A stretch of DNA of 29,951 nucleotides from Candidatus Fermentibacterota bacterium (lineage in GTDB: Bacteria > JAFGKV01), in NCBI GenBank assembly GCA_016928395.1, contig JAFGKV010000312.1:1-29951 (forward strand), in the 5' to 3' direction. The translations under genes and the position numbers were made by a program. Positions 16,138-29,951 of the stretch are shown here, one piece after another. Each line of letters begins with the position of its first letter. Within the stretch, counting starts at the first letter, position 1. A model generated the notes under the pieces. It saw only the letters and a list, made by a program, of their open reading frames with translations. It searched no databases and was not told the DNA's origin.

Positions 16138-16719
16138 TCACGCCTGAATCCGCCAGACGGCGGCATCCTCGGGCGTATCGATGTCGCGCACCACGGCCGC
16201 ATCTCCGGTCTCAACCCGCACCACCGCGGGCCCCAACCACCCCAGAAGATCGCGCAGGGTCAGCTGCCGCCTGGCCATCATCATGCCACAGGCGACGCGG
16301 TCCAGAGCCACTGGATGGCCGCCGCGGCCGAGGTACATCGGCACCGCAGCGTGGGCATTCGGGAAACCCTCCAACGCGCCCAAGAGCATCTGAAGGGTGG
16401 CGGGCAGCACCCCGGGGCAATCCACCGGATGGACAAAGACCACGTCCGCTTCGGCAGCGCGCCGGATCCCGGTTCGCACGGAGCTGGCCATGCCTCGCCC
16501 CGGCGCCACGTTGCGGATCACGGAAGCCTGGAGAACGGCTGCGCCTGCCTCCACCTCACCGGCGTGATACCCGGTCACCACAAGGAGGTGCACGCCCAGC
16601 GCGCGAAACGGCGCAGAAGCCTGTTGCAGCAGCGTGGTGTCTTCCTTCGTGATCAAAGCCTTGGGGCTTCCCATGCGGGAGGACTCGCCGGCCGCCAGGA
16701 TGATCGCCTCGATCCTCAC
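16138..16719 (-). CDS. mocA: MocA-like nucleotidyltransferase (molybdenum cofactor cytidylyltransferase type)
   Basis: This 193-residue protein of the MobA-like NTP transferase family has the nucleotide-binding start ILAAGESSRMGSPK (residues 7-20), the GMASSVRTGI segment and the metal-binding HPVDCPGV motif. These are the marks of MocA, which adds CMP to molybdopterin to make the dinucleotide cofactor used by xanthine-dehydrogenase-type enzymes. The GTG at 16719 overlaps the stop of the FAD-subunit gene as GTGA, so it is the last gene of a coupled four-gene operon; the longer upstream extension is not needed. Context fixes the role: it matures the hydroxylase encoded just before it. A MobA-type guanylyltransferase is less likely because of the neighbours. 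Confidence 0.88.
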   Translation of the reverse strand: MRIEAIILAAGESSRMGSPKALITKEDTTLLQQASAPFRALGVHLLVVTGYHAGEVEAGAAVLQASVIRNVAPGRGMASSVRTGIRRAAEADVVFVHPVDCPGVLPATLQMLLGALEGFPNAHAAVPMYLGRGGHPVALDRVACGMMMARRQLTLRDLLGWLGPAVVRVETGDAAVVRDIDTPEDAAVWRIQA

Positions 16720-17615
16720 GGCAGGAGCCTCGCCGTCACACGCCGCATGAGCACCGCGGTGGCATGACGCACATAGGAGGCTTCGAACCTCCCGGTCTGC
16801 ACTGCTGGTATGGCGGCCTCGGCACTCTGTGCTACGACGTCGTCGCTGCACTCCCAAGGGAGCGGGACGCGGCGGGGATAGGGCAGGGCCGCGCCGATGG
16901 CGATGGACAGGTCGCGGGTTCCCTCGTGACGGGTTCCGGCCACCACCAGATCATGGAAGTCGATGCTTCCCCGGCGCCGCAGCGTCTCCACTGCCACTGC
17001 GTCATCATCGAGGCAGGGAATCAGAATCTCACTGAGGATGCCGCCACGCCGGCACGGGCCAGCATCGTCGGGGTAGAGCGCCCGCAACGCGATAGTCTCG
17101 GCGCCGGCGGGGGTGATCAGGTTGATCGATGCCCCCGCGGCGAGCAACACGGTGCCAAGCAGGGAGCGCTGCTGGGCCCAACAGCGTTCGCCGCCGGCGT
17201 GGCAGCGCGTTCCGCCGGTGCGAAAACACGGCCCCGACGAGCGGCGCCAGTGCAGGGGGCGGTTGAGAAAGCGACACCGCCCCTCCTGCAGGAGCGCTCC
17301 GCCCAGAGTCGCCAACTCCCGTACCCGGGGGGTGGCCACTTCCATGCATTCCCGGCGCAGCCACTGTGGGCACACGGATGATCGGGATAGACGCCCCAGG
17401 GTCACCGCCGAGCCGACACGGAGACTATCACCATCGCGATGGATTTCTCTCAGTTCCACAAGGCGCCCGATGGCAACGAACGCAGCATCGGCCAGCACCC
17501 CATGCTTCACCCGGGGGAGAAGGTCGGTGCCGCCGGCCAGGGGAACAAAGCCTTCGTCGAGTCTGGCCAAGGCATCCGGCAGCGACCGGGCGATATGCAC
17601 GGTGTGGATCGTCAT
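16716..17615 (-). CDS. FAD-binding subunit of a molybdenum hydroxylase, with four-Cys insertion
   Basis: This is the medium (FAD) subunit, 299 residues, of an xanthine-dehydrogenase-family enzyme. It has the FAD pyrophosphate motif PLAGGTDLLP (25-34) and the second motif ATLGGALLQ (102-110). Between them and the C-terminal domain is a loop with four cysteines at 114, 130, 138 and 145 (EGRCRFLNRP, GPCFRTGG, TRCHAGGERC). This spacing and wording match the extra [4Fe-4S] loop of the 4-hydroxybenzoyl-CoA reductase beta subunit, which ordinary xanthine dehydrogenase FAD subunits lack. It therefore probably relays electrons through an additional cluster. The start overlaps the stop of the molybdenum subunit as ATGA, and the stop overlaps the MocA-like gene. 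The true substrate cannot be told from sequence. Confidence 0.92.
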   Translation of the reverse strand: MTIHTVHIARSLPDALARLDEGFVPLAGGTDLLPRVKHGVLADAAFVAIGRLVELREIHRDGDSLRVGSAVTLGRLSRSSVCPQWLRRECMEVATPRVRELATLGGALLQEGRCRFLNRPLHWRRSSGPCFRTGGTRCHAGGERCWAQQRSLLGTVLLAAGASINLITPAGAETIALRALYPDDAGPCRRGGILSEILIPCLDDDAVAVETLRRRGSIDFHDLVVAGTRHEGTRDLSIAIGAALPYPRRVPLPWECSDDVVAQSAEAAIPAVQTGRFEASYVRHATAVLMRRVTARLLP

Positions 17616-19855
17616 CCGCCGGCCTCCTCAACGGTTGGGTATCCTGCGGCACCGTGGCCGAGGAGAAGATCGGGAGTCAGCGGGATGCGGCAGATGTGTG
17701 CCCCGATGGCTCGGGCCACCGCATTGGCGATGGCAGGCACCACGGGCAGCAGCGGCCCCTCGCCCGCCTCCTTGGCGCCGTGAGGGCCCGCCGGATCGGG
17801 TTCCTCAACAATAACGGCATGGATACGGGGCAGATCCGCCGCGGTGGGGATGCCGTACTCCGTGAATCCCACGGGATCCATGATCCCCCGGGTCAGCCCT
17901 GACTTCTCGGTGAGCGCTTCGCCCAGGGCCATGATGGCGCAGCCATGGAGTTGGCCGCGAACACGGCCCAGATCCACTGCCCGGCCGCAGTCATGGGCCA
18001 GCCAGATGTCGTGCACCACAAGTGTTCCCAGCTCCCGGTCCACGCTCACTCGCGCCGCCGCCGCGCTGAAGCTGAACGCCGGCGACGGCCCCAAGGCGCC
18101 GCCGGGATAGGAGCCGGCCTCCACCCGAGGCGTGTATCCGCCGCCGGCCATGACCACACCGAGCCGTTCCTCAGCCCGGGCGATGGCCCGCGTTAGGCTC
18201 ATGCCTCGGCCGGGTTCGTCTCGTACCACCACCCGCCCCGGCAGGAGATCCAAGTCCTCTGCTCGCGTGCCCAATCTTCGGGCCGCCGCCTCCAGCACGG
18301 TGCGCCTGAGGGAGCCCGCTGCGGCAATGACGGCATTGCCGGCCATAAGGGTGACGCGGCTGGAATAGGAGCCCAAGTCCACGGGACACGCATCGGTATC
18401 GCCGGCAGAGACAATGACGGAGGACGGGGGCTGTCCCAGGGTCTCGGCGGCCAAAACGCGGAGGGTTTCCAAGGCGCCTTGGCCGATGTCAGCCACGCCC
18501 ACCGTGAGGGAGAACAGGCCACAGCGATCCGCACGGATGAGGGCTTGGGAATGGGGCAGGCGATTGGGCATAATGGGGAACGCGGCTCCACAGATGTAGG
18601 CCGAACCGGCGAAACCCACCGCCTCGCCGGCTCGGCAGGGGATGTCCTCGGTATGGCGGGCGACTTCCTGAAGGCATCGGACAAATCCCGTGGAACCGAT
18701 CTTCAGGCCGTTCACCGTGGCCTCGCCCTGCTCCAGCGCCAGGGCCATCCGCCATGCCACCGGGTCAAGATCCAGGTGCAGTGCGGCATGATCCATGAGC
18801 CGTTCCACGGCGAATCGGATCTGGACCGACCCGTGCCCACGCTTCGGGCCCGCGGGAGGCCCATTGGTAAACACGCGGCGGCTTCGGAACCTGAGCGATT
18901 CGACGCGATACGGCACCGCCATGAACTGGCCCGCATAGTACGAGGTGACCAGGCCCATGCCCGCGTAGGCGCCCCCGTTCAGAAGGATATCCGCATCGAG
19001 CCCCAGGATGGCATGCCGGGAGTCGACCGCCATGCGAAGGGTGATGAGTGCCTCGTGACGGCCCCGATGCGTGTAGAAGACTTCCTCGCGAGAAAGCACG
19101 ATGCGGACCGGGCGGTGCAGCATCATCGAGAGCTTCGCCGCGACGGCTTCATGGGCGTAGACCTCGCTCTTGCCCCCGAAGCCGCCGCCCACCCGGGGAG
19201 TCATGACCCGCACCGCTGCAGGATCAAGGGCGAGCAGCCGGGCCAGTTCGTGGTGGACGAGATGAGGGCATTGGGTCGAACTCCAGAGCCACAACCGTCT
19301 CTCGGGCCTCCACCATGCCAGGGCGCCGTGGGGCTCAAGGGCCGCATGAGTGCTCGCGCCGTAGCCGTAGGTTCCGGTGAACACTGTGTGGGCGCGGGAG
19401 AAGCTCTCTTCCACGGGCCCGAACTCCAGCACGATGTCACGCAGCACATTGTCGGGGTGATTTTCGTGGAGAGGCGTGGCACCTTCGGCTGAGGTCATGG
19501 TCAGCACCGGCGGAAGGGAATCCAGGGCGATTTTCACCGTGTTCGCCCCTGCGGCGGCGGCCTCGGGGGATACTCCCACCACTACGGCCAGAGGCTCCCC
19601 CACATAGCGAACCTTTCCTCGCGCCAGCACAGGTTCGTCGCGGGATGAGTGGATTACACCGCCGCGCACGGCAAACGCCTCCCCATCCAGCGCAGCGATA
19701 ACGCCGGGTGTTGCCAGGGCAGGCGCCAGATCGATCGCCCGTATGACGGCATGAGGGAGGGATGAACGTACCAACGCGGCATAGACCATGCCGGGCACGG
19801 CGAGGTCGGCCACATAGGGGTCAACCCAGGGCCAGCGAAGGTCAGGCGTGCTCAT
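17612..19855 (-). CDS. Molybdopterin-binding subunit of a xanthine dehydrogenase/4-hydroxybenzoyl-CoA reductase-like enzyme
   Basis: This is the large catalytic subunit, 747 residues. The N-terminal a/b-hammerhead domain spans roughly residues 10-120 (LARGKVRYVGEPLAVVV). The molybdopterin-binding motif GGGFGGK is at 223-229, and PPAGPKRGHGSVQ at 333-345 lies in the cofactor loop where relatives have PPxGAMRGHG. Further on are VADIGQGALETL and GDTDACPVDLGSYSSRVTLM; the latter closely resembles the 4-hydroxybenzoyl-CoA reductase alpha subunit. The catalytic glutamate is Glu699 in GAKEAGEGPLLP. I chose the ATG at 19855 because it overlaps the 2Fe-2S gene stop as ATGA; the longer frame upstream is spurious. 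The enzyme would hydroxylate, or reductively dehydroxylate, an aromatic or heterocyclic compound in the cytoplasm. Confidence 0.92.
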   Translation of the reverse strand: MSTPDLRWPWVDPYVADLAVPGMVYAALVRSSLPHAVIRAIDLAPALATPGVIAALDGEAFAVRGGVIHSSRDEPVLARGKVRYVGEPLAVVVGVSPEAAAAGANTVKIALDSLPPVLTMTSAEGATPLHENHPDNVLRDIVLEFGPVEESFSRAHTVFTGTYGYGASTHAALEPHGALAWWRPERRLWLWSSTQCPHLVHHELARLLALDPAAVRVMTPRVGGGFGGKSEVYAHEAVAAKLSMMLHRPVRIVLSREEVFYTHRGRHEALITLRMAVDSRHAILGLDADILLNGGAYAGMGLVTSYYAGQFMAVPYRVESLRFRSRRVFTNGPPAGPKRGHGSVQIRFAVERLMDHAALHLDLDPVAWRMALALEQGEATVNGLKIGSTGFVRCLQEVARHTEDIPCRAGEAVGFAGSAYICGAAFPIMPNRLPHSQALIRADRCGLFSLTVGVADIGQGALETLRVLAAETLGQPPSSVIVSAGDTDACPVDLGSYSSRVTLMAGNAVIAAAGSLRRTVLEAAARRLGTRAEDLDLLPGRVVVRDEPGRGMSLTRAIARAEERLGVVMAGGGYTPRVEAGSYPGGALGPSPAFSFSAAAARVSVDRELGTLVVHDIWLAHDCGRAVDLGRVRGQLHGCAIMALGEALTEKSGLTRGIMDPVGFTEYGIPTAADLPRIHAVIVEEPDPAGPHGAKEAGEGPLLPVVPAIANAVARAIGAHICRIPLTPDLLLGHGAAGYPTVEEAGG

Positions 19856-20319
19856 GCCAGCGCCGCCAGAGCCTCCACCATGAGGGCAGAGCCGCCGCAC
19901 CGGCATAGATTGCCCGACAGCTCCCGCTGTATGGTCTCCCGATCTGGGTTTCGCGTATGGGAGAACAGACACCAGGCGGTCACCAGTACGCCCGGCGCGC
20001 AGAACCCGCATTGGATCGCGCCCGCCTCCACGAGGGCGTCGGCGATACGCCGCGCCAGGGGATCGCCAGAGAGCCCCGCTGCGGTACGAATCGAGCAGCC
20101 ATCACAGCATGCGGTCAGCACAAGGCAACTGGGCACGGCTACGCCGTCCACTGCCACCGTACACGCGCCGCAGGCACCCTCCCCGCACCCCACCTTGACG
20201 TCCGCACAGCCATAGCGGCGCAGGGTTTCCACCAGCGTCTCATCGGGCCTTGGCGTCACGGTCGTGGGCCGGTCGTTCACCGTCAGCCGCACCGTCGCGC
20301 ATGGAGTCGCGTCTATCAT
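19852..20319 (-). CDS. 2Fe-2S subunit of the molybdenum hydroxylase
   Basis: This is the small iron-sulfur subunit, 155 residues, with both expected clusters. The plant-ferredoxin-type site is VGCGEGACGACTV with Cys45, Cys50, Cys53 and Cys65. The second, four-helix-bundle site uses Cys104 and Cys107 (QCGFCAPG) and Cys139 and Cys141 (NLCRCGG). The length is normal for the family, and it passes electrons between the molybdenum site and the flavin. It is the first gene of the operon that continues into the large, FAD and MocA-like genes with 4-base overlaps at every junction. The 133 bases upstream separate it from the ribonucleotide reductase stop. The ATG at 20319 is the only reasonable start, although its ribosome site is weak. 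Confidence 0.95.
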   Translation of the reverse strand: MIDATPCATVRLTVNDRPTTVTPRPDETLVETLRRYGCADVKVGCGEGACGACTVAVDGVAVPSCLVLTACCDGCSIRTAAGLSGDPLARRIADALVEAGAIQCGFCAPGVLVTAWCLFSHTRNPDRETIQRELSGNLCRCGGSALMVEALAALA

Positions 20320-20452: not shown

Positions 20453-23194
20453 CTAGGAGCAGCCGGTGGTCGTGCCGCAGTTGGGGCACACGTAACACTT
20501 TCCGCTGCTGATGGTGATGCTCCCGCATGAGGGGCACGGCGGGCTGCCGATCTGGTTCTTGGCGGCCTGGGCGGCTTCGGCTTGGGACACGGGCAGCACG
20601 GCAAGCTCAAGCTGGGGCTGGCCGGTCATGGTATCTGCCTCCTCGGGAGCAAAGAACTTCAAGGCCAGCCAACGGAAGATGTAATCAAGGACGGATTTCG
20701 CGGTCGGGATCTGCGGGTTGGTCGTCGCCCCCGATGGCTCGAACCTGAGGTGACTGAACTTGTCAATGAGCACAGTGAGAGGCACGCCATACTGCAGCAT
20801 GATGGATGTGGCGGTGGCAAAGGAATCCATGAGCCCGCTGACCACGGATCCTTCCTTGGCCATGCGGACAAAGATCTCACCAGGGGATCCGTCCTCGTAC
20901 TTGCCGACCGTGATATACCCCTCATGGCCTCCGATGGAGAACTTGTGGGTAACCGCCAGGCGCTCCGCGGGGAGCCGGCGGCGCATGGGTTTTTTCGGAG
21001 CGGGCTTCGGGTCTTTCCTGACGGAGAGCGGCTGATCGTTCTTGCAGCCATCGCGGTAGATGCACACCGCTTTCAACCCCAGCTTCCACGCCTCGACGAA
21101 GATGTCGTAGATTTCGTCTACCGTCGTTTCGTGGCCGACATTCACGGTCTTGGAGATGGCGCCTGAGATAAAGGGCTGGACCGCGGCCATCATGCGGAGG
21201 TGGCCCAGAGGTCCGATGCAGCGGACGCCCCGCTCGGGCGTCAGCGCGCAATCGAACACGGGGAGATGATCATCGTGCAGACCTCCGGCGCCTTCGATGG
21301 TGCCGGTGCGCTCCACATGGTCAAGGATCTTGCCGGTCTCATGGGGAGCATACCCCAAGGTGGTCAGCGCCCTGGCCAGGGAGCGGTTCACCATGCGGAT
21401 GGTGCCCCCGTCCACCATCTTCTTCGTCTTGACAAGGGCAATGTCGGGCTCGATTCCGGTGGTATCGCAGTCCATCATGAACGAAATGGTTCCCGTCGGC
21501 GCGAGCACGGAAACCTGCGCATTGCGCACCCCGAAACGACGTGCTCCTTCGTCGGCCAGTTGCCAGACCTTGCGCACCGTATCCAGAAGGAGGGAGGGAA
21601 CGCTCTCACTATCGATCTCGTTGACTTTCTCTCGGTGCATGTTCAGCACCTTCTGAACCGAAGAGCGATTTGCCGAGTATTCCTCAAAGGGGCCCAGAAG
21701 TGAGGCAAGCTCAGTGGAAAACCTGTAGGCTTCTCCCGTCATCAGGGCGGTTATGGCTGCGGCCAGCGCCCGGCCCTGGTCGCTGTCATAGGGAAGGCCC
21801 AAAGACATGAGCAGGCATCCGAGATTCGCATAGCCCAGACCCAGAGGCCGGTACCTGTGGCTGTTGGCTCCGATGCGGAGTGTCGGGTACTGCGCATTGT
21901 CCACGATAATGTCCTGGGCGGCGATCATGATGTCCACCACGTAGCGGAACGACTCGACGTCGAATGCACCATCCTCCCCGACAAACTTGACAAGGTTCAG
22001 GGAGGCGAGATTGCAGGCGGAGTCATCCACGAACATGTACTCGCTACAGGGGTTGCTGGCGCGGATGCGCGTGGTGTCCGCGCAGGTGTGCCAGGCATTT
22101 GCCGTGGTGTCGAACTGCAGCCCAGGGTCGCCGCATTCATGGGCGCACTCGGCCATGAGCCGGAGAAGCTCCCGGGCGCTGCGGCGCTCCAACACCTCGC
22201 CGTTGGTCACCGCCCGCAGATTCCACTCGCCGCCCCGGAGCGCACGCTCCATGAAGTCATCGGTGACACGCACGGAGTTGTTGGAGTTCTGGAAGAATAC
22301 CGAGGAGTACGCCTCTCCCGTAAGGCTGCCATCGTATCCCGCGGCGATAAGGGCCTTGGCCTTACGTTCCTCCCGGATCTTGCATTGCACGAATTCGGCG
22401 ACATCGGGATGATCAACATCGAGGATGACCATCTTGGCGGCGCGACGGGTCTTGCCACCGGACTTGATGACGCCGGCAAACGCGTCGTACCCGCGCATGA
22501 ACGAGACGGGCCCCGATGCATGACCGCCGGAAGAGAGGCGTTCCTTGCTGGAACGTATCGTAGAAAGATTGGTGCCAGTCCCGCTGCCATGCTTGAACAG
22601 GGTGCCCTCAGTCTTGGCCAGATCAAGGATCGAGTCCATGGTGTCTTCCACGGAATTGATGAAGCAGGCCGAACACTGAGGCCGCTCCTCGATGCCGACA
22701 TTGAACCAGACAGGGCTATTGAATGAGGCGATCTGGTGGAGGAGGATATGTGACAATTCCTCGGAGTAGACCCGGGCTTGGTCATCCCCGGAGAAGTACC
22801 CGTCCTTGATGCCCCACGCGGTGATCGTATCAACGACGCGGGAGATGAGTTGCTTGACGCTGTGCTCGCGGCTGCCGAGGTCGGGCGATCCCTTGAAATA
22901 CTTGGAAGCGACCACATTGGTTGCCGTGGCCGACCACGATGCCGGAACCTCCACCTTTTCTTGTGTGAATACGGTCGTACCGTCCGCCGCGTTGATCGAA
23001 GCTGAGCGCTCCTCCCATTCCACGGCGTCGAAGGGATGGATCCCGGCACGGGTGAAGTGACGCCGAAGAAGGATTCCCCGGGCCGGTCCATCACCCGGGG
23101 CGGACCGAGGCGGGCGCCATCCTGAGGACTTCTGGGGCCAGAAAATCAACTGCCGTTCATCCACAGCCGAGTCGTCCTGAACTGCATGCTTCAT
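20453..23194 (-). CDS. nrdJ: Adenosylcobalamin-dependent (class II) ribonucleoside-diphosphate reductase
   Basis: This 913-residue B12-dependent reductase makes deoxyribonucleotides using a thiyl radical generated from adenosylcobalamin, with no oxygen requirement. The substrate-site cysteine region is PQCSACFIN (Cys174/177). The Asn-x-Cys-x-Glu catalytic triad is NPCSE at 381-385, followed by DDSACNLASLNL. VLAPTGTISFMMDCDTTGIEP is a further class II signature. The C-terminus carries the zinc-ribbon CPSCGSITISSGKC/CPNCGTTTGC with redox cysteines that re-reduce the active site. The gene stands alone, with its own probable promoter upstream and a GGAGGGGGAGA stretch about 10-20 bases before the ATG at 23194. 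No NrdR gene or second reductase is in the window. The use of NrdJ implies that the cell makes or imports cobalamin. Confidence 0.96.
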   Translation of the reverse strand: MKHAVQDDSAVDERQLIFWPQKSSGWRPPRSAPGDGPARGILLRRHFTRAGIHPFDAVEWEERSASINAADGTTVFTQEKVEVPASWSATATNVVASKYFKGSPDLGSREHSVKQLISRVVDTITAWGIKDGYFSGDDQARVYSEELSHILLHQIASFNSPVWFNVGIEERPQCSACFINSVEDTMDSILDLAKTEGTLFKHGSGTGTNLSTIRSSKERLSSGGHASGPVSFMRGYDAFAGVIKSGGKTRRAAKMVILDVDHPDVAEFVQCKIREERKAKALIAAGYDGSLTGEAYSSVFFQNSNNSVRVTDDFMERALRGGEWNLRAVTNGEVLERRSARELLRLMAECAHECGDPGLQFDTTANAWHTCADTTRIRASNPCSEYMFVDDSACNLASLNLVKFVGEDGAFDVESFRYVVDIMIAAQDIIVDNAQYPTLRIGANSHRYRPLGLGYANLGCLLMSLGLPYDSDQGRALAAAITALMTGEAYRFSTELASLLGPFEEYSANRSSVQKVLNMHREKVNEIDSESVPSLLLDTVRKVWQLADEGARRFGVRNAQVSVLAPTGTISFMMDCDTTGIEPDIALVKTKKMVDGGTIRMVNRSLARALTTLGYAPHETGKILDHVERTGTIEGAGGLHDDHLPVFDCALTPERGVRCIGPLGHLRMMAAVQPFISGAISKTVNVGHETTVDEIYDIFVEAWKLGLKAVCIYRDGCKNDQPLSVRKDPKPAPKKPMRRRLPAERLAVTHKFSIGGHEGYITVGKYEDGSPGEIFVRMAKEGSVVSGLMDSFATATSIMLQYGVPLTVLIDKFSHLRFEPSGATTNPQIPTAKSVLDYIFRWLALKFFAPEEADTMTGQPQLELAVLPVSQAEAAQAAKNQIGSPPCPSCGSITISSGKCYVCPNCGTTTGCS

Positions 23195-25339: not shown

Positions 25340-26455
25340 ATGCCGCGAACCATGAAGGCTGTGGTCAAGACTGCCCCTCACCTTGGGGCCGAATGGCGTG
25401 ACGTGCCCGTGCCGATGCCCCTACCGGACTGGGTGCTCCTCAGGGTCCGGGCGACGTCCATCTGCGGGACCGATGTCCACATCTACGGGTGGAATCAATG
25501 GGCGCAGACACGCATCGGCATAGAGAGACTTCCGCAGATACTAGGCCATGAGGTGGCGGGGGAGGTGGTGGAGGCCGGCTCGCAGTGTAGGTGCATCAGG
25601 GTGGGAGATTACGTGTCCGCGGAGACCCACATCTATCACCCCGCAGATCTCCAGGCGATGCTGGGCCAGCGCCACATCGGTGAACGAATGAAGATCGTAG
25701 GCGTCGATCACGACGGTTGCTTTGCGGAGTACTTCGCAGTGCCGGAATCGGTATGCTGGGTAAACGATGGGGCTATTCCGCCCGAACTGGCAGCGGTACA
25801 GGAGCCCATGGGCAATGCGTGCTACGCCTTGCTAGGCGAGGATTGCGATGTTGCCGGCAAATCGGTGGTCATACTAGGAGACGGCCCCACGGCATTGTTT
25901 GCTGTCGGCATTGCTAGGGCCGTCGGTTTGACCACCATCGTGGTGATAGGCGCCTCGTCGTACGCATTAGGCATTGCGCGGCGAATGGGGGCGGATCACA
26001 CGCTGGACATCACCGATAGCGGCGTTGACCGCGTGCAGTACGTTCGTGACCTCACCGGCGGGTACGGCGCTGATCTTGTCCTCGACATGGTGGGAGCGGC
26101 CTCGGCCATCCAGGAGGGGCTGAAGATCATCCGAAAGGGAGGCCGCTACAGCGCATTCGGAGTATCAGGAAGCGCCACGATTCCCATCGATTACAACAAC
26201 GGCATTGTGTTCCGCGGTATCCAGATCCACGGCATTTCGGGCCGCAAACTGTTCGATACCTGGTATCGCGTCCGCAACCTGCTGGCCTCGGCGCGGGTGG
26301 ATATTCGACCGATCATCACTCATCTGCTGCCCCTGGAGCGCTTCACCGAGGGCTTTGAGACTGCCATGGGCACGCCCAGGCAGTGCGGCAAGGTTGTCCT
26401 CTTCCCGGATGCACAGGAGCTGGCGGCTGCCCGGCAGAGGATGAGCGCGACATAG
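25340..26455 (+). CDS. tdh: L-threonine 3-dehydrogenase-like zinc alcohol dehydrogenase lacking the structural zinc cysteines
   Basis: This medium-chain dehydrogenase has 371 residues and aligns along its length with L-threonine 3-dehydrogenase, which oxidises threonine to 2-amino-3-ketobutyrate. The catalytic zinc site is complete: Cys42 with Thr44 and His47 in ICGTDVHIY, His70-Glu71 in GHEVAG, and the EPMGNA segment. The threonine-type C-terminal signature ISGRKLFDTWYRV is present. The structural zinc loop aligns without gaps, but all four cysteines are replaced (His100, Asp103, Ala106, Gly114). After the nucleotide-binding GDGPTA motif, the second strand ends VVIGASSYAL, without the acidic residue usual for NAD. 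AGGAGG precedes the ATG. The neighbouring acetyl-CoA synthetase, carrier protein and kbl genes support a threonine/glycine role. Confidence 0.85.
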   Translation: MPRTMKAVVKTAPHLGAEWRDVPVPMPLPDWVLLRVRATSICGTDVHIYGWNQWAQTRIGIERLPQILGHEVAGEVVEAGSQCRCIRVGDYVSAETHIYHPADLQAMLGQRHIGERMKIVGVDHDGCFAEYFAVPESVCWVNDGAIPPELAAVQEPMGNACYALLGEDCDVAGKSVVILGDGPTALFAVGIARAVGLTTIVVIGASSYALGIARRMGADHTLDITDSGVDRVQYVRDLTGGYGADLVLDMVGAASAIQEGLKIIRKGGRYSAFGVSGSATIPIDYNNGIVFRGIQIHGISGRKLFDTWYRVRNLLASARVDIRPIITHLLPLERFTEGFETAMGTPRQCGKVVLFPDAQELAAARQRMSAT

Positions 26456-26924
26456 CGACTCATGCGCCGGATGCCGGGACATACCGGGACGACGCATGGA
26501 ACTCACGACGCGGTGACGGGGCGGATGGATGACGGGGAGACAGGATGAATGGAATGATGGGAGCGGACCACGAACCGTTTCCGCAACGCGCTGGAAGTTG
26601 GGGGTTTTGCTCAATCCTCACTGCGGGGGGTGTGGCCGGTCTGAAGGCCGATCCCTCTCTCTGTGAACCGCGAGTGAAGCTCGCTCCATTCCGCCGGGGT
26701 TGCCCTTGGGGGGCCTTGGCGCTATGCTGCGCCCTCGCGAACGGGTATGAACCGGGGGATGCAGCGGCGTCTCCACGGCTCCCCGGCGCACGGCGCCCTC
26801 CAGGCCATCGTGTCGTGAGCGCCGAGGGGAATCCGTTTCTGCCCGTGTGCGTCCGGGCCAGATGCCCAAGGCCCGACGGCCTGCCACCGATAAGGAAACA
26901 AGCACACCGCCAAGGAGGAAAAGC
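26456..26924. other. Intergenic region between tdh and the acetyl-CoA synthetase
   Basis: This 469-base gap begins with a GGATGGATGACGG/GATGAATGGAATGATGG-rich stretch (about 26510-26560), like those near 23470 and, inverted, 3110. It also contains small hairpins: GCGAG/CTCGC around 26669-26683, GGCGC/GCGCC near 26717-26732 and near 26782-26794. One open frame runs through but has the composition of translated GC-rich noncoding DNA. AAGGAGG near 26912 is the ribosome site for the next gene. A promoter for that gene probably lies here, though none is convincing by eye. Confidence 0.5.
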
Positions 26925-28625
26925 GTGAGCAGTATGGGTCTGTACGAGGACCGGGTGAAGGATTTCGACTGGTCGATTTCCGAACAGGAATTGGAGTATG
27001 GCGCAGGCGGCATGTACAACATAGCGTTCTATTGCACCGATCGGATCTGCCAGAAGGGTTTGGGCGGCAAACCCGCCTTCATCTGGGAGGGGTTCAGCGG
27101 CCACGTTAAACAGTTCACCTACGATGATATCCGGGTTCACAGCAATGCCATTGCCCAGTTTCTGCAGAATCAGGGGCTGGAGCCCGGCGACAGAGTCTGC
27201 CTGTTCATGGACCGGATACCGGAGCTGTATATCGGCTTTGTCGGCGTGCTCAAGATGGGCGCCATCGCGCAACCTCTTTTCTCCGCGTTCGGCGAGGAGG
27301 CTCTGTTCACGCGGCTGGAAGACGCCTCAACCAAGGCGGTGATCACGACCCGGAAGCACTTGGGAAAGGTGCGCCGCATCCGCAAGGACTTGCCGGCCTT
27401 GGCCACCATCATCGTCGTGGATGCCGGCGAGAAATCGTTGGAACCAGGAGAGGTTGCATTCGACATGGAAGGGGCCGCCCGGGTCGAGGATTTTGATATC
27501 TATAAGGCCGGTCCGGAAACACCCTCGGTTCTTCACTACACCTCTGGCACCACCGGCAAGCCCAAGGGCGCGTTGCACGTACATTCCTCACTCATTGCGC
27601 AGTACCTGACGGCCAAGTGGGTCCTTGATATGCACCCCGACGATGTCTATTGGTGTACCGCCGATCCGGGATGGGTCACCGGCACGTCCTACGGGATCAT
27701 CGGTCCGTGGGCCAACGGCGTGACGCAGGTGGTCCTCGATGCGGGATTCAGCGCGCAGAACTGGTATTCGTTCGCCGAGCGGATGAAGGTTACGGTCTGG
27801 TATTCAGCGCCCACGGCCATCCGGTTGCTCATGAAGGAGGGGATGGACCCCGTCCAGAAGCATGATCTCTCGACGCTACGACACCTGGTGAGCGTTGGAG
27901 AGCCGCTGAACGCCGAGGCGGTCATCTGGTCGGAGAAGGCCTTTGGCAGGCCGTTCCATGATTCGTTCTGGCAGACGGAGACAGGCTCCATCATGATCAG
28001 CAACTACCCAGGAATGCGGATCAAGCCCGGCTCCATGGGAAAGCCCTTCCCAGGCATCACGGCCACTGTGGTGAACCCCAAGACCTTCGAGCCCGTGCAG
28101 ACCCCTGGCACCGTAGGGCTGATCGCCATCAAACCCGGCTGGCCGTCAATGTTCCGTGCCTACTGGAACAACGAGCAAATTTACAACGCCAAGTTCAAGA
28201 ACGGCTGGTACCTCTCGGGAGACCGGGCCAGCATCGATGGCGACGGCTACTTCTGGTTTGTCGGCAGGGATGATGACGTGATCAACACCGCCGGCCATCT
28301 TGTCGGCCCGTTTGAGATCGAATCGGCCCTGCTGGAACACCCCGCCGTGGCCGAATCGGCGGCGGTGGGGAAACCGGATCCCATCAACATGGAAGTCGTG
28401 AAGGCGTTCATCGCCCTCAAGCCGGGCTATGTCGCCGACGACGATCTGACGATGGATATCATGAACTTCATCCGCAAGAAGCTCTCACCCCTGGCAATGC
28501 CGCAGGATATCGAGTTCGTGCCCTCCCTCCCGAAGACCCGTAGCGGCAAGATTATGCGTCGCGTGCTGCGGGCCCAGGAGTGGGGCGAAGATATAGGTGA
28601 TGTTTCGACCCTCGAGAATGAGTAG
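26925..28625 (+). CDS. acsA: AMP-forming acetyl-CoA synthetase, AcsA type
   Basis: This is an adenylate-forming ligase of 566 residues, close to the length of Bacillus AcsA. It activates acetate to acetyl-AMP and transfers it to a thiol. Motifs: P-loop YTSGTTGKPKGALHVH (205-220), ADPGWVTGTSYGIIGP (246-261), VWYSAPTAIRLLM, WQTETGS (349-355), YLSGDRASIDGDGYFWFVGRDDDV, the hinge/AGHLVGPFEIES, and PKTRSGKIMRR with catalytic Lys542. Trp349 directly before QTETG is the residue that restricts the pocket to acetate in characterised Acs enzymes, so acetate is the expected acid. The GTG at 26925 is chosen because AAGGAGG is six bases upstream. The carrier-protein gene follows after 33 bases, so the acyl acceptor could be that protein's phosphopantetheine, CoA, or both. 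Confidence 0.9.
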   Translation: MSSMGLYEDRVKDFDWSISEQELEYGAGGMYNIAFYCTDRICQKGLGGKPAFIWEGFSGHVKQFTYDDIRVHSNAIAQFLQNQGLEPGDRVCLFMDRIPELYIGFVGVLKMGAIAQPLFSAFGEEALFTRLEDASTKAVITTRKHLGKVRRIRKDLPALATIIVVDAGEKSLEPGEVAFDMEGAARVEDFDIYKAGPETPSVLHYTSGTTGKPKGALHVHSSLIAQYLTAKWVLDMHPDDVYWCTADPGWVTGTSYGIIGPWANGVTQVVLDAGFSAQNWYSFAERMKVTVWYSAPTAIRLLMKEGMDPVQKHDLSTLRHLVSVGEPLNAEAVIWSEKAFGRPFHDSFWQTETGSIMISNYPGMRIKPGSMGKPFPGITATVVNPKTFEPVQTPGTVGLIAIKPGWPSMFRAYWNNEQIYNAKFKNGWYLSGDRASIDGDGYFWFVGRDDDVINTAGHLVGPFEIESALLEHPAVAESAAVGKPDPINMEVVKAFIALKPGYVADDDLTMDIMNFIRKKLSPLAMPQDIEFVPSLPKTRSGKIMRRVLRAQEWGEDIGDVSTLENE

Positions 28626-28658
28626 CTGCACCACGGGTACTCACGGAAGGAGCCTCCA

Positions 28659-28916
28659 ATGGCAGACGATCTGAAACCCACCATCCTTGCCTATGTGAAG
28701 AAGGAATACCTCGACGAGGATTCCGACGAAGAGATCACCACCGGAACCCGGCTGATCTCCAGCGGCATCGTGGACTCGTTTTCCATGGTCTCACTCAAGC
28801 GCTTCCTGGAGAAGAAGTACGCCATCCAGATTCCGGATGCGGATGCCTCCCCCGAGGCGTTCGATACCGTGGATAGCATAGCCTCGCTGGTAATCCGCTT
28901 TCAGGCCAAGGCCTGA
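28659..28916 (+). CDS. Acyl carrier protein-like protein
   Basis: This acidic 85-residue helical protein fits the phosphopantetheine-carrier family. The attachment serine is Ser40 in SGIVDSFSMVSLKRFLE, where typical fatty-acid ACPs have DSL; the DSF form is seen in dedicated carrier proteins paired with their own adenylating ligases. Helix one (LKPTILAYVKKEYL) and the C-terminal ASPEAFDTVDSIASLVIRF helices are in place. A ribosome site, GGAAGGAGC, precedes the ATG. It sits 33 bases after the acetyl-CoA synthetase and 13 before kbl, so the three are almost surely co-transcribed. Expected role: carrying an acetyl or similar acyl group between ligase and the Kbl enzyme. The housekeeping ACP is unlikely, given no fatty-acid genes nearby. 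Confidence 0.88.
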   Translation: MADDLKPTILAYVKKEYLDEDSDEEITTGTRLISSGIVDSFSMVSLKRFLEKKYAIQIPDADASPEAFDTVDSIASLVIRFQAKA

Positions 28917-28929
28917 GCCGGAGGGCACA

Positions 28930-29951
28930 ATGGCGTTCTCTTCGGCTGCGCGCGCGTCATACCAGAACGAGATCTCCAGCCTCCGGGACCAAGGCCTGTT
29001 CAAGCAGGAGCGGTACATTCATTCGCCCCAGGCTGCCGACATTGAGGTCGAGTTTCCCATCGGTCAAGGCGTTGTGCCCAAGAAAGTCATCAACCTCTGC
29101 GCCAACAACTACCTCGGGCTTTCCAGCCATCCTGACGTGCTCAAGGCAGCCCACGACGGGTTGGAGGCACGCGGGTATGGTATGTCGTCGGTGCGGTTCA
29201 TCTGCGGCACGCAGGACATCCACCGTGAACTGGAAGACCGGTTGACCGCGTTTCTGGGCACCGAGGACACCCTGCTGTTTCCTTCATGCATGGACGCCAA
29301 TGCCGGCGTGTTCGAGGCGGTACTGTCCCCCGAGGATGTCATGATCGCCGATCGTCTGGTGCATGCATCCATCGTCGACGGAATGCGGCTCTGTAAGGCC
29401 ATGCAGGATACCTACAAGCATTCCGACATGGGTCATCTGGAAGAGAAGCTTCAGGAACATCAGGACAAGCGCCACCGCCTGGTAATCACCGACGGCGTGT
29501 TCTCCATGGACGGGGACATCGCTAAGTTGGATGAGATCGTGGAGCTGGCAGAGAAATACGATAGCATGGTGTTTGTCGACGATTCCCATGCCAGCGGATT
29601 CATCGGCAAGACCGGCAGGGGCACCCACGAGCACTGCGGTGTCCTTGGGCGGATCGACATCATCACCACGACGTTGGGTAAGGCTCTGGGCGGCGCTTCG
29701 GGCGGGTGCGTATCGGGGCGGAGCGAACTCGTAGAGTTGTGTCGCCAGCGGGCTCGTCCATATTTGTTTTCCAATAGCGTCGCGCCGGTCATAGTCGCCG
29801 GAGCCATCACGGTGCTTGACCTTATCTCCAAGACCACCGAGCGACGCGACACGCTGGAGTGGAACACCACCTACTGGCGGAAGCTCCTTTCCGAGGCGGG
29901 GTTCGACATCAAACCCGGGGATTCCCCCATCGTCCCGGTGATGCTGTACAA
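28930..29951 (+). CDS. kbl: 2-amino-3-ketobutyrate CoA ligase (glycine C-acetyltransferase), C-terminus cut by window edge
   Basis: This is a PLP-dependent alpha-oxoamine synthase; 340 codons are visible and roughly 60 are missing at the right edge. It matches Kbl throughout, including the diagnostic SVRFICGTQDIHRELE (88-102) that separates Kbl from 8-amino-7-oxononanoate synthase and serine palmitoyltransferase. The PLP site is seen as His145, Asp217 and His220 in VFVDDSHASGF, and Lys251 in TTLGKALGGASGG. Kbl splits 2-amino-3-ketobutyrate with CoA into glycine and acetyl-CoA, or runs in reverse. GGAGGG lies five bases before the ATG and the carrier-protein stop is 13 bases upstream. Together with tdh about 2.5 kb upstream it completes the two-step threonine-glycine route; the carrier gene suggests the acetyl donor or acceptor may be protein-bound. 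Confidence 0.94.
   Translation, partial: MAFSSAARASYQNEISSLRDQGLFKQERYIHSPQAADIEVEFPIGQGVVPKKVINLCANNYLGLSSHPDVLKAAHDGLEARGYGMSSVRFICGTQDIHRELEDRLTAFLGTEDTLLFPSCMDANAGVFEAVLSPEDVMIADRLVHASIVDGMRLCKAMQDTYKHSDMGHLEEKLQEHQDKRHRLVITDGVFSMDGDIAKLDEIVELAEKYDSMVFVDDSHASGFIGKTGRGTHEHCGVLGRIDIITTTLGKALGGASGGCVSGRSELVELCRQRARPYLFSNSVAPVIVAGAITVLDLISKTTERRDTLEWNTTYWRKLLSEAGFDIKPGDSPIVPVMLY

Follow-up and report, generated by a model that had tools for sequence, protein, structure and literature searches.

A conserved acs-acp-kbl gene set and a candidate carrier-protein-linked acetyl/Kbl system in candidate-phylum bacteria

Genes and features of the locus

The window, by which we mean the whole 29,951-nt stretch of DNA analysed, ends with genes for a threonine dehydrogenase-like protein (tdh), an AMP-forming acetate ligase (acs), a small acyl carrier protein (ACP; acp), and a 2-amino-3-ketobutyrate synthase/lyase (Kbl) family enzyme (Table 1). 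Gene calls agree with the initial annotation that all four genes lie on one strand, and that acs and acp are separated by 33 nt and acp and kbl by 13 nt. The tdh gene stands about 470 nt from acs, which makes a shared transcript with acs less sure. No sigma-70 promoter was found in this gap, where matches were no richer than chance for a consensus that may not suit this host, and a search of the same gap for a remnant of a holo-ACP synthase (AcpS) gave no credible match.

Table 1. Features of the locus and their positions in the window
Feature	Positions	Strand	Remarks
tdh, zinc-type L-threonine 3-dehydrogenase family protein	25340-26455	+	371 aa; best match TIGR00692/PRK05396
ribosome-binding site AAGGAGGA before the acs GTG start	26912-26919	+	direct reading of the sequence
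acs, acetate-activating AMP-forming ligase, proposed acetate:ACP ligase	26925-28625	+	GTG start; PRK04319
Leu459 codon of acs, at the A8-motif Arg position (Arg526 of Salmonella Acs)	28299-28301	+	alignment
acp, dedicated acyl carrier protein	28659-28916	+	85 aa; VDSFSMVSLK motif
Ser40 codon of acp, presumed 4'-phosphopantetheine attachment site	28776-28778	+	84/84 invariant
kbl, proposed carrier-type 2-amino-3-ketobutyrate synthase/lyase	28930-29951	+	3´ end lost at contig end; PRK06939
kbl signature stretch: R142, V144, H145 (catalytic), lost R159/R161, K163, H169, K173	29353-29448	+	clade comparison
Lys251 codon of kbl, PLP-binding lysine	29680-29682	+	76/76 conserved

The window holds 340 of the about 415 codons of kbl, the rest lying beyond the contig end. 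Contig C105 (1-300) of the same genome opens with exactly the missing C-terminal codons, and about 60 nt after the end of this first kbl it carries a second kbl of the canonical type. The two contigs thus look like genome neighbours; we infer this join because the protein reads on exactly across the break and because relatives, L057 and L082 among them, show the same arrangement. A tandem second kbl is a feature of this genome, as it is of several relatives. No natural acs-acp or acp-kbl fusion was found among the loci examined; where long stop-to-stop frames ran across an acp gene, they proved to be out of frame with acs and were ruled out as fusions. AlphaFold models of artificial read-through proteins reached a pLDDT of 84 for acs-acp of the window and 90.5 for acp-kbl of locus L034, and structure comparisons of these models took in the enzyme parts only.

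Elsewhere in the window, on the reverse strand, are a gene for an adenosylcobalamin-dependent class II ribonucleotide reductase (20453-23194; PRK06556) and, from translations read by eye, genes for apparent xanthine-dehydrogenase-type molybdenum and FAD subunits and a MobA-like nucleotidyltransferase (16138-20011).

Conservation of gene order and linked genes

A search with the ACP against GTDB species genomes returned 186 relatives, and the best 80 (L028-L107) were kept. These 80 span 17 named phyla plus unassigned ones, with phylum names taken from the records, nearly all of which are metagenome-assembled genomes. Within this set, kbl adjoins the ACP gene in 77 of 79 testable loci and acs does so in 64 of 79, with both genes beside the ACP gene in 61 of the 80; because the loci were picked by ACP similarity, these rates are valid for close ACP relatives. 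Median gaps are 47 nt for acs-acp and 30 nt for acp-kbl. In the 15 loci of this set that have no adjacent acs, the ligase was seldom found at another site, since 10 of these genomes, all drafts, were searched and 8 showed no cluster-type copy. Co-occurrence was also seen among 289 comparison genomes: the ACP is present in 18 of them, including all 15 with a cluster-type ligase (62% identity or more; Fisher p about 2e-22). Pairwise distances of the ligase, ACP and Kbl correlate with one another (r 0.67-0.73, against a shuffled maximum of 0.22).

Conservation of the gene order was the check for which the initial annotation had called, and the acs-acp-kbl order proved to be widespread, across the 17 named phyla. 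The picture is divided by distance, however. The order holds in distant relatives, but ligase and ACP are both missing from the two closer genomes searched, of which one belongs to the same genus (82% complete) and the other to the same family (98%). The absence of the cluster from these genus and family neighbours makes its distribution patchy, a pattern suggestive of either horizontal transfer or repeated loss.

The place of tdh had to be revised. It had been read as part of the set, but 12 of the 80 loci have a linked Tdh-family gene, in the same orientation in 11 of them, so that tdh is an occasional partner, found in several phyla, outside the invariant core. The window tdh scores below both relevant cut-offs (353 bits for TIGR00692, with an equivalog cut-off of 458, and 343 bits for PRK05396, with a cut-off of 380), with L-threonine 3-dehydrogenase still its best family match. 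The linked Tdh proteins of L087 (489 bits) and L034 (426 bits) each pass a Tdh cut-off, and here the tdh gene lies next to acpS, overlapping it by 4 nt in L087 and spaced from it by 21 nt in L034.

A more regular neighbour is the gene for AcpS (PF01648): in 57 of 78 loci it immediately precedes the cluster genes and has the same orientation (L020 and L039, both counted here, are one contig). PF01648 matches were found in 15 of 16 cluster genomes searched, with two or three matches in 14 of these 15, and the cluster AcpS is thus usually an extra copy. The window cluster is without a linked acpS, and the only PF01648 match of its genome, on contig C260, is an open frame of 255 residues with no BLAST match to any of the cluster AcpS proteins. 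From its length and this lack of similarity it looks like an Sfp-type enzyme, and could serve the window carrier. The linkage of a phosphopantetheinyl transferase in most relatives lends further support to the idea of a carrier-linked unit. In two loci (L041 and L065), a gene for an acetate permease of the Gpr1/Fun34/YaaH family lies inside the cluster.

Residue changes in the ligase, the carrier and Kbl

By family score the ligase is an acetate-CoA ligase (776 bits for PRK04319, above the cut-off of 729). Its closest family is the B. subtilis-type AcsA (PDB 9g79; PRK04319), with which it shares 44% identity in a structural alignment and the same acetate pocket; the pocket residues V310, T311, V386 and W414 and the catalytic Lys609 are kept in 63 of 63 cluster ligases. 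All 63, however, have Leu in place of the A8-motif Arg that marks the AcsA family. The Arg is present in the CoA enzyme 9g79, in 8rpk, in Salmonella Acs, and in Acs-type paralogs encoded by genomes whose cluster has no acs, whereas the cluster ligase has Leu and is encoded beside an ACP. In Salmonella Acs this residue, Arg526, touches the phosphate of the adenylate and has been proposed to stabilise the thioester-forming conformation (PMC10455477). All 63 cluster ligases retain Arg584, a contact of the CoA 3´-phosphate in the Salmonella enzyme (PMC10455477), so they may still use CoA. The loss of another CoA phosphate contact, Arg191 of Salmonella Acs (PMC10455477), was considered as an argument against CoA use and dropped, since the CoA enzyme 9g79 is also without it. 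The cluster ligase family is also marked by a basic stretch, KHLGKVRR.

Ligases outside the cluster offer a view of how closely the Leu follows a carrier. In two acs-less genomes, ligases encoded in trans carry the same Leu. Another genome (G177; L135 and L139) has two AcsA-like ligases, of which the more distant, with Leu, adjoins a different ACP gene, while the Arg-bearing paralog is not beside an ACP gene. A further ligase outside the cluster (L136) has Met at this position and no ACP nearby, and loss of the A8 Arg is thus not perfectly diagnostic of carrier use.

The carrier itself scores 18.6 bits for PF00550, just under the cut-off of 20.8, with a clear VDSFS motif, and the Ser of its DS motif, where phosphopantetheine would be attached, is the same in every carrier compared. 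Helix II, which follows this Ser, is basic in the cluster ACP (SLKRFLEKKY) and acidic in the housekeeping ACP of the same genome (VELVMALEEAF); the acidic part of the cluster ACP is instead its N-terminal stretch, EYLDEDSDEE. Judged by composition, a basic recognition helix would fit a private carrier unseen by the general machinery, and could explain the extra AcpS.

Kbl likewise belongs to a known family by score (489 bits for the window protein against PRK06939 glycine C-acetyltransferase, cut-off 460; 574 bits for the protein of the Zixibacteria locus L030 against TIGR01822, cut-off 493). In a tree, the Kbls of the cluster fall into a single clade (SH-aLRT 100), whose neighbour is the group that holds the second kbl of this genome, and they keep the active-site Lys, His, Asp, Arg and Asn. 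Relative to the canonical Kbls (three compared) and the paralogs (18 compared), the clade has gained R142, K163, H169 and K173, the last three being invariant, and V144 stands for the Asn of an LNHAS motif that is Asn in 18 of 18 paralogs. Canonical Kbls have basic residues at positions 159 and 161, near the presumed CoA site (R/R in all three); across the 76 cluster Kbls this pair is lost, with Q, H, R or T at the first position and T, N or S at the second. We take position 159 to be that of the CoA-contacting lysine in ALAS structures. The paralogous Kbls, including the second one of this genome, keep LNHAS and mostly keep R159.

A putative carrier-linked route and its alternatives

The initial annotation had proposed that ligase, ACP and Kbl work as a carrier-linked unit similar in logic to those of bacterial sphingolipid synthesis. 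Order across phyla, near-perfect co-occurrence, and mutually consistent residue changes in the ligase and Kbl all strengthen this proposal, and we consider it likely that the genes encode a carrier-linked acetyl/Kbl system, whichever its direction and product. With slightly better than even confidence, we further suggest a dedicated acetyl-carrier-protein system that feeds a Kbl-type alpha-oxoamine synthase as follows. A phosphopantetheinyl transferase, the cluster AcpS in most relatives and an enzyme encoded elsewhere in this genome, would convert the carrier to its holo form. The ligase would use ATP and acetate to form acetyl-AMP and then pass the acetyl group to the carrier thiol, and the carrier-type Kbl would condense acetyl-S-carrier with glycine to give 2-amino-3-ketobutyrate. 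Where Tdh is linked, it could reduce this product to threonine; in genomes that, like this one, have a CoA-type Kbl in tandem, that enzyme could exchange 2-amino-3-ketobutyrate with acetyl-CoA and glycine. The reversible Kbl/Tdh pathway would then be powered by free acetate and ATP, with acetyl-CoA not drawn on. The gene set, its order, its co-occurrence, the conserved catalytic and acetate-pocket residues and the substitutions specific to the clade are seen in the sequences; the loading and condensation steps, the carrier specificity and the direction are proposals built on them. The synthetic direction is modestly favoured, because the ligase uses ATP that way and an acetate permease is sometimes linked.

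A bolder version, which we put forward tentatively and hold at less than even odds, is a phylum-spanning primary-metabolic route. In it, a private holo-carrier with its own AcpS would bring acetate to a carrier-specific Kbl for ATP-driven synthesis of 2-amino-3-ketobutyrate, and of threonine, from acetate and glycine, and tandem carrier- and CoA-linked Kbls would split synthesis from breakdown. The threonine synthase gene thrC is present in this genome, so a role for the cluster in threonine synthesis is not required. A search that covered GHMP-type homoserine kinase found thrB below the cut-off in 12 of 16 cluster genomes, this one included.

Acetate is loaded onto a carrier protein, as would happen here, by MadH, an acetate:ACP ligase of Malonomonas rubra; unlike the cluster ligase, MadH serves a decarboxylase, the malonate decarboxylase of that organism. 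The closest parallel for the set as a whole is the sphingolipid module of Rhodobacteria, in which AasR acylates only its carrier AcpR, and serine palmitoyltransferase (SPT) prefers acyl-AcpR (PMC9386255). Both combine an AMP-forming ligase, a dedicated ACP and a PLP-dependent alpha-oxoamine synthase, whose genes co-occur and cluster (PMC9386255). The Rhodobacteria module, however, has a long-chain acyl group, serine as acceptor, a FadD-like ligase and SPT (PMC9386255), whereas the cluster has an acetate-type Acs, Kbl, an occasional Tdh and a linked AcpS, and occurs in other phyla. With another acyl chain, another amino acid, other enzyme subfamilies and other hosts, the cluster is not a member of the AasR/AcpR/SPT set, with its SPT and long-chain ligase, but would work alike. 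SulA, a cysteate acyl-ACP transferase (PDB 7u7h), is another alpha-oxoamine synthase; it prefers acyl-ACP over acyl-CoA, and the electropositive patch at its active-site entrance is a precedent for a positive patch in an ACP-using enzyme (PMC9304779). It differs in using cysteate and long-chain acyl-ACP, in belonging to the SPT subgroup, and in having no dedicated ligase shown (PMC9304779). With the canonical Tdh/Kbl pathway of E. coli the cluster shares enzyme families and catalytic residues, but that pathway is CoA-based, without ligase, ACP or AcpS, and the cluster Kbls are a clade of their own with distinct residues. By these analogies, the cluster is best viewed as a variation on the ligase-ACP-oxoamine synthase theme of sphingolipid synthesis, and its putative carrier-linked Kbl version as new; no description of a carrier-linked Kbl system was found in the open-access literature searched, which is weak evidence of novelty.

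Other readings account for part of the data. Tdh and Kbl normally serve threonine breakdown, and the identical gene set could run catabolically: Tdh would oxidise threonine, a carrier-type Kbl would split 2-amino-3-ketobutyrate with the holo-carrier as acceptor to yield glycine and acetyl-carrier, the ligase in reverse would make acetate and ATP from AMP and PPi, and the permease would export the acetate. The presence of thrC, with which synthesis is not obviously needed, fits such a run, but a carrier has no evident gain over CoA for energy conservation and few loci have the linked Tdh that it begins with, and we think it unlikely. Ordinary CoA chemistry, in which the ligase makes acetyl-CoA, Kbl uses it, and the ACP is unrelated or regulatory, is quite unlikely in our estimation. 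It agrees with the family cut-offs that both enzymes pass and with the retained Arg584. It also agrees with the cluster ligase being perhaps the only one of the cell, since no other Acs-like gene above 300 bits was found in 12 of 16 genomes searched. Against it, ACP-kbl is the most invariant pair of the cluster, even without acs, an extra AcpS is linked, and the changes near the Kbl active site are specific to the clade and not seen in paralogs.

The product could also be different, namely an aminoketone building block for a lipid, pyrazine or cofactor, formed with another amino acid as acceptor or as aminoacetone after decarboxylation. The acceptor does differ among alpha-oxoamine synthases, most loci have no linked Tdh, and a small uncharacterised gene follows kbl in 10 loci; we find this reading very doubtful all the same, as the active-site residues and NCBIfam identity of Kbl are those of a glycine C-acetyltransferase and Tdh is linked in several phyla. 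Lastly, acetyl-ACP can prime condensing enzymes, and a ligase that is acetate-specific by its pocket could supply acetyl-ACP as a primer for fatty acid synthesis. This is highly improbable: the carrier recognition helix is basic where that of the housekeeping ACP is acidic, no fatty-acid-synthesis family recurs in the cluster flanks, and kbl would be left unexplained.

Kbl and Tdh are textbook CoA chemistry, and a widespread carrier version, as we favour, would carry the ligase-ACP-oxoamine synthase principle beyond lipids to the central metabolism of amino acids. If it exists, many "acetate-CoA ligase" and "glycine C-acetyltransferase" names in candidate phyla would be mis-assigned. The acs-acp-kbl set is also a small, clonable system for asking why acetate would sit on a protein and not on CoA.

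Several further genes were seen near the cluster in relatives. The small gene after kbl, conserved and of about 101 aa, occurs in L029 (5544-5849), L037, L042, L043, L048, L053, L056, L061, L069 and L088; the L029 copy matched no Pfam family above the cut-off. Related genes whose products have a signal-peptide-like N-terminus are inserted in the cluster in L045 (8252-8896; nitroreductase family) and L036 (6730-7368). A DAO-family FAD-dependent oxidoreductase is encoded just downstream of kbl in L074 (9630-10778), and ORFs of similar length and position follow kbl in L054 and L087, which like L074 are from Caldifarciminota. Finally, the window's own genome (G000) has a third oxoamine synthase on contig C330 (L025:8292-9497), which resembles the serine palmitoyltransferase of Sphingobacterium (429 bits), and the host may therefore make sphingolipids.
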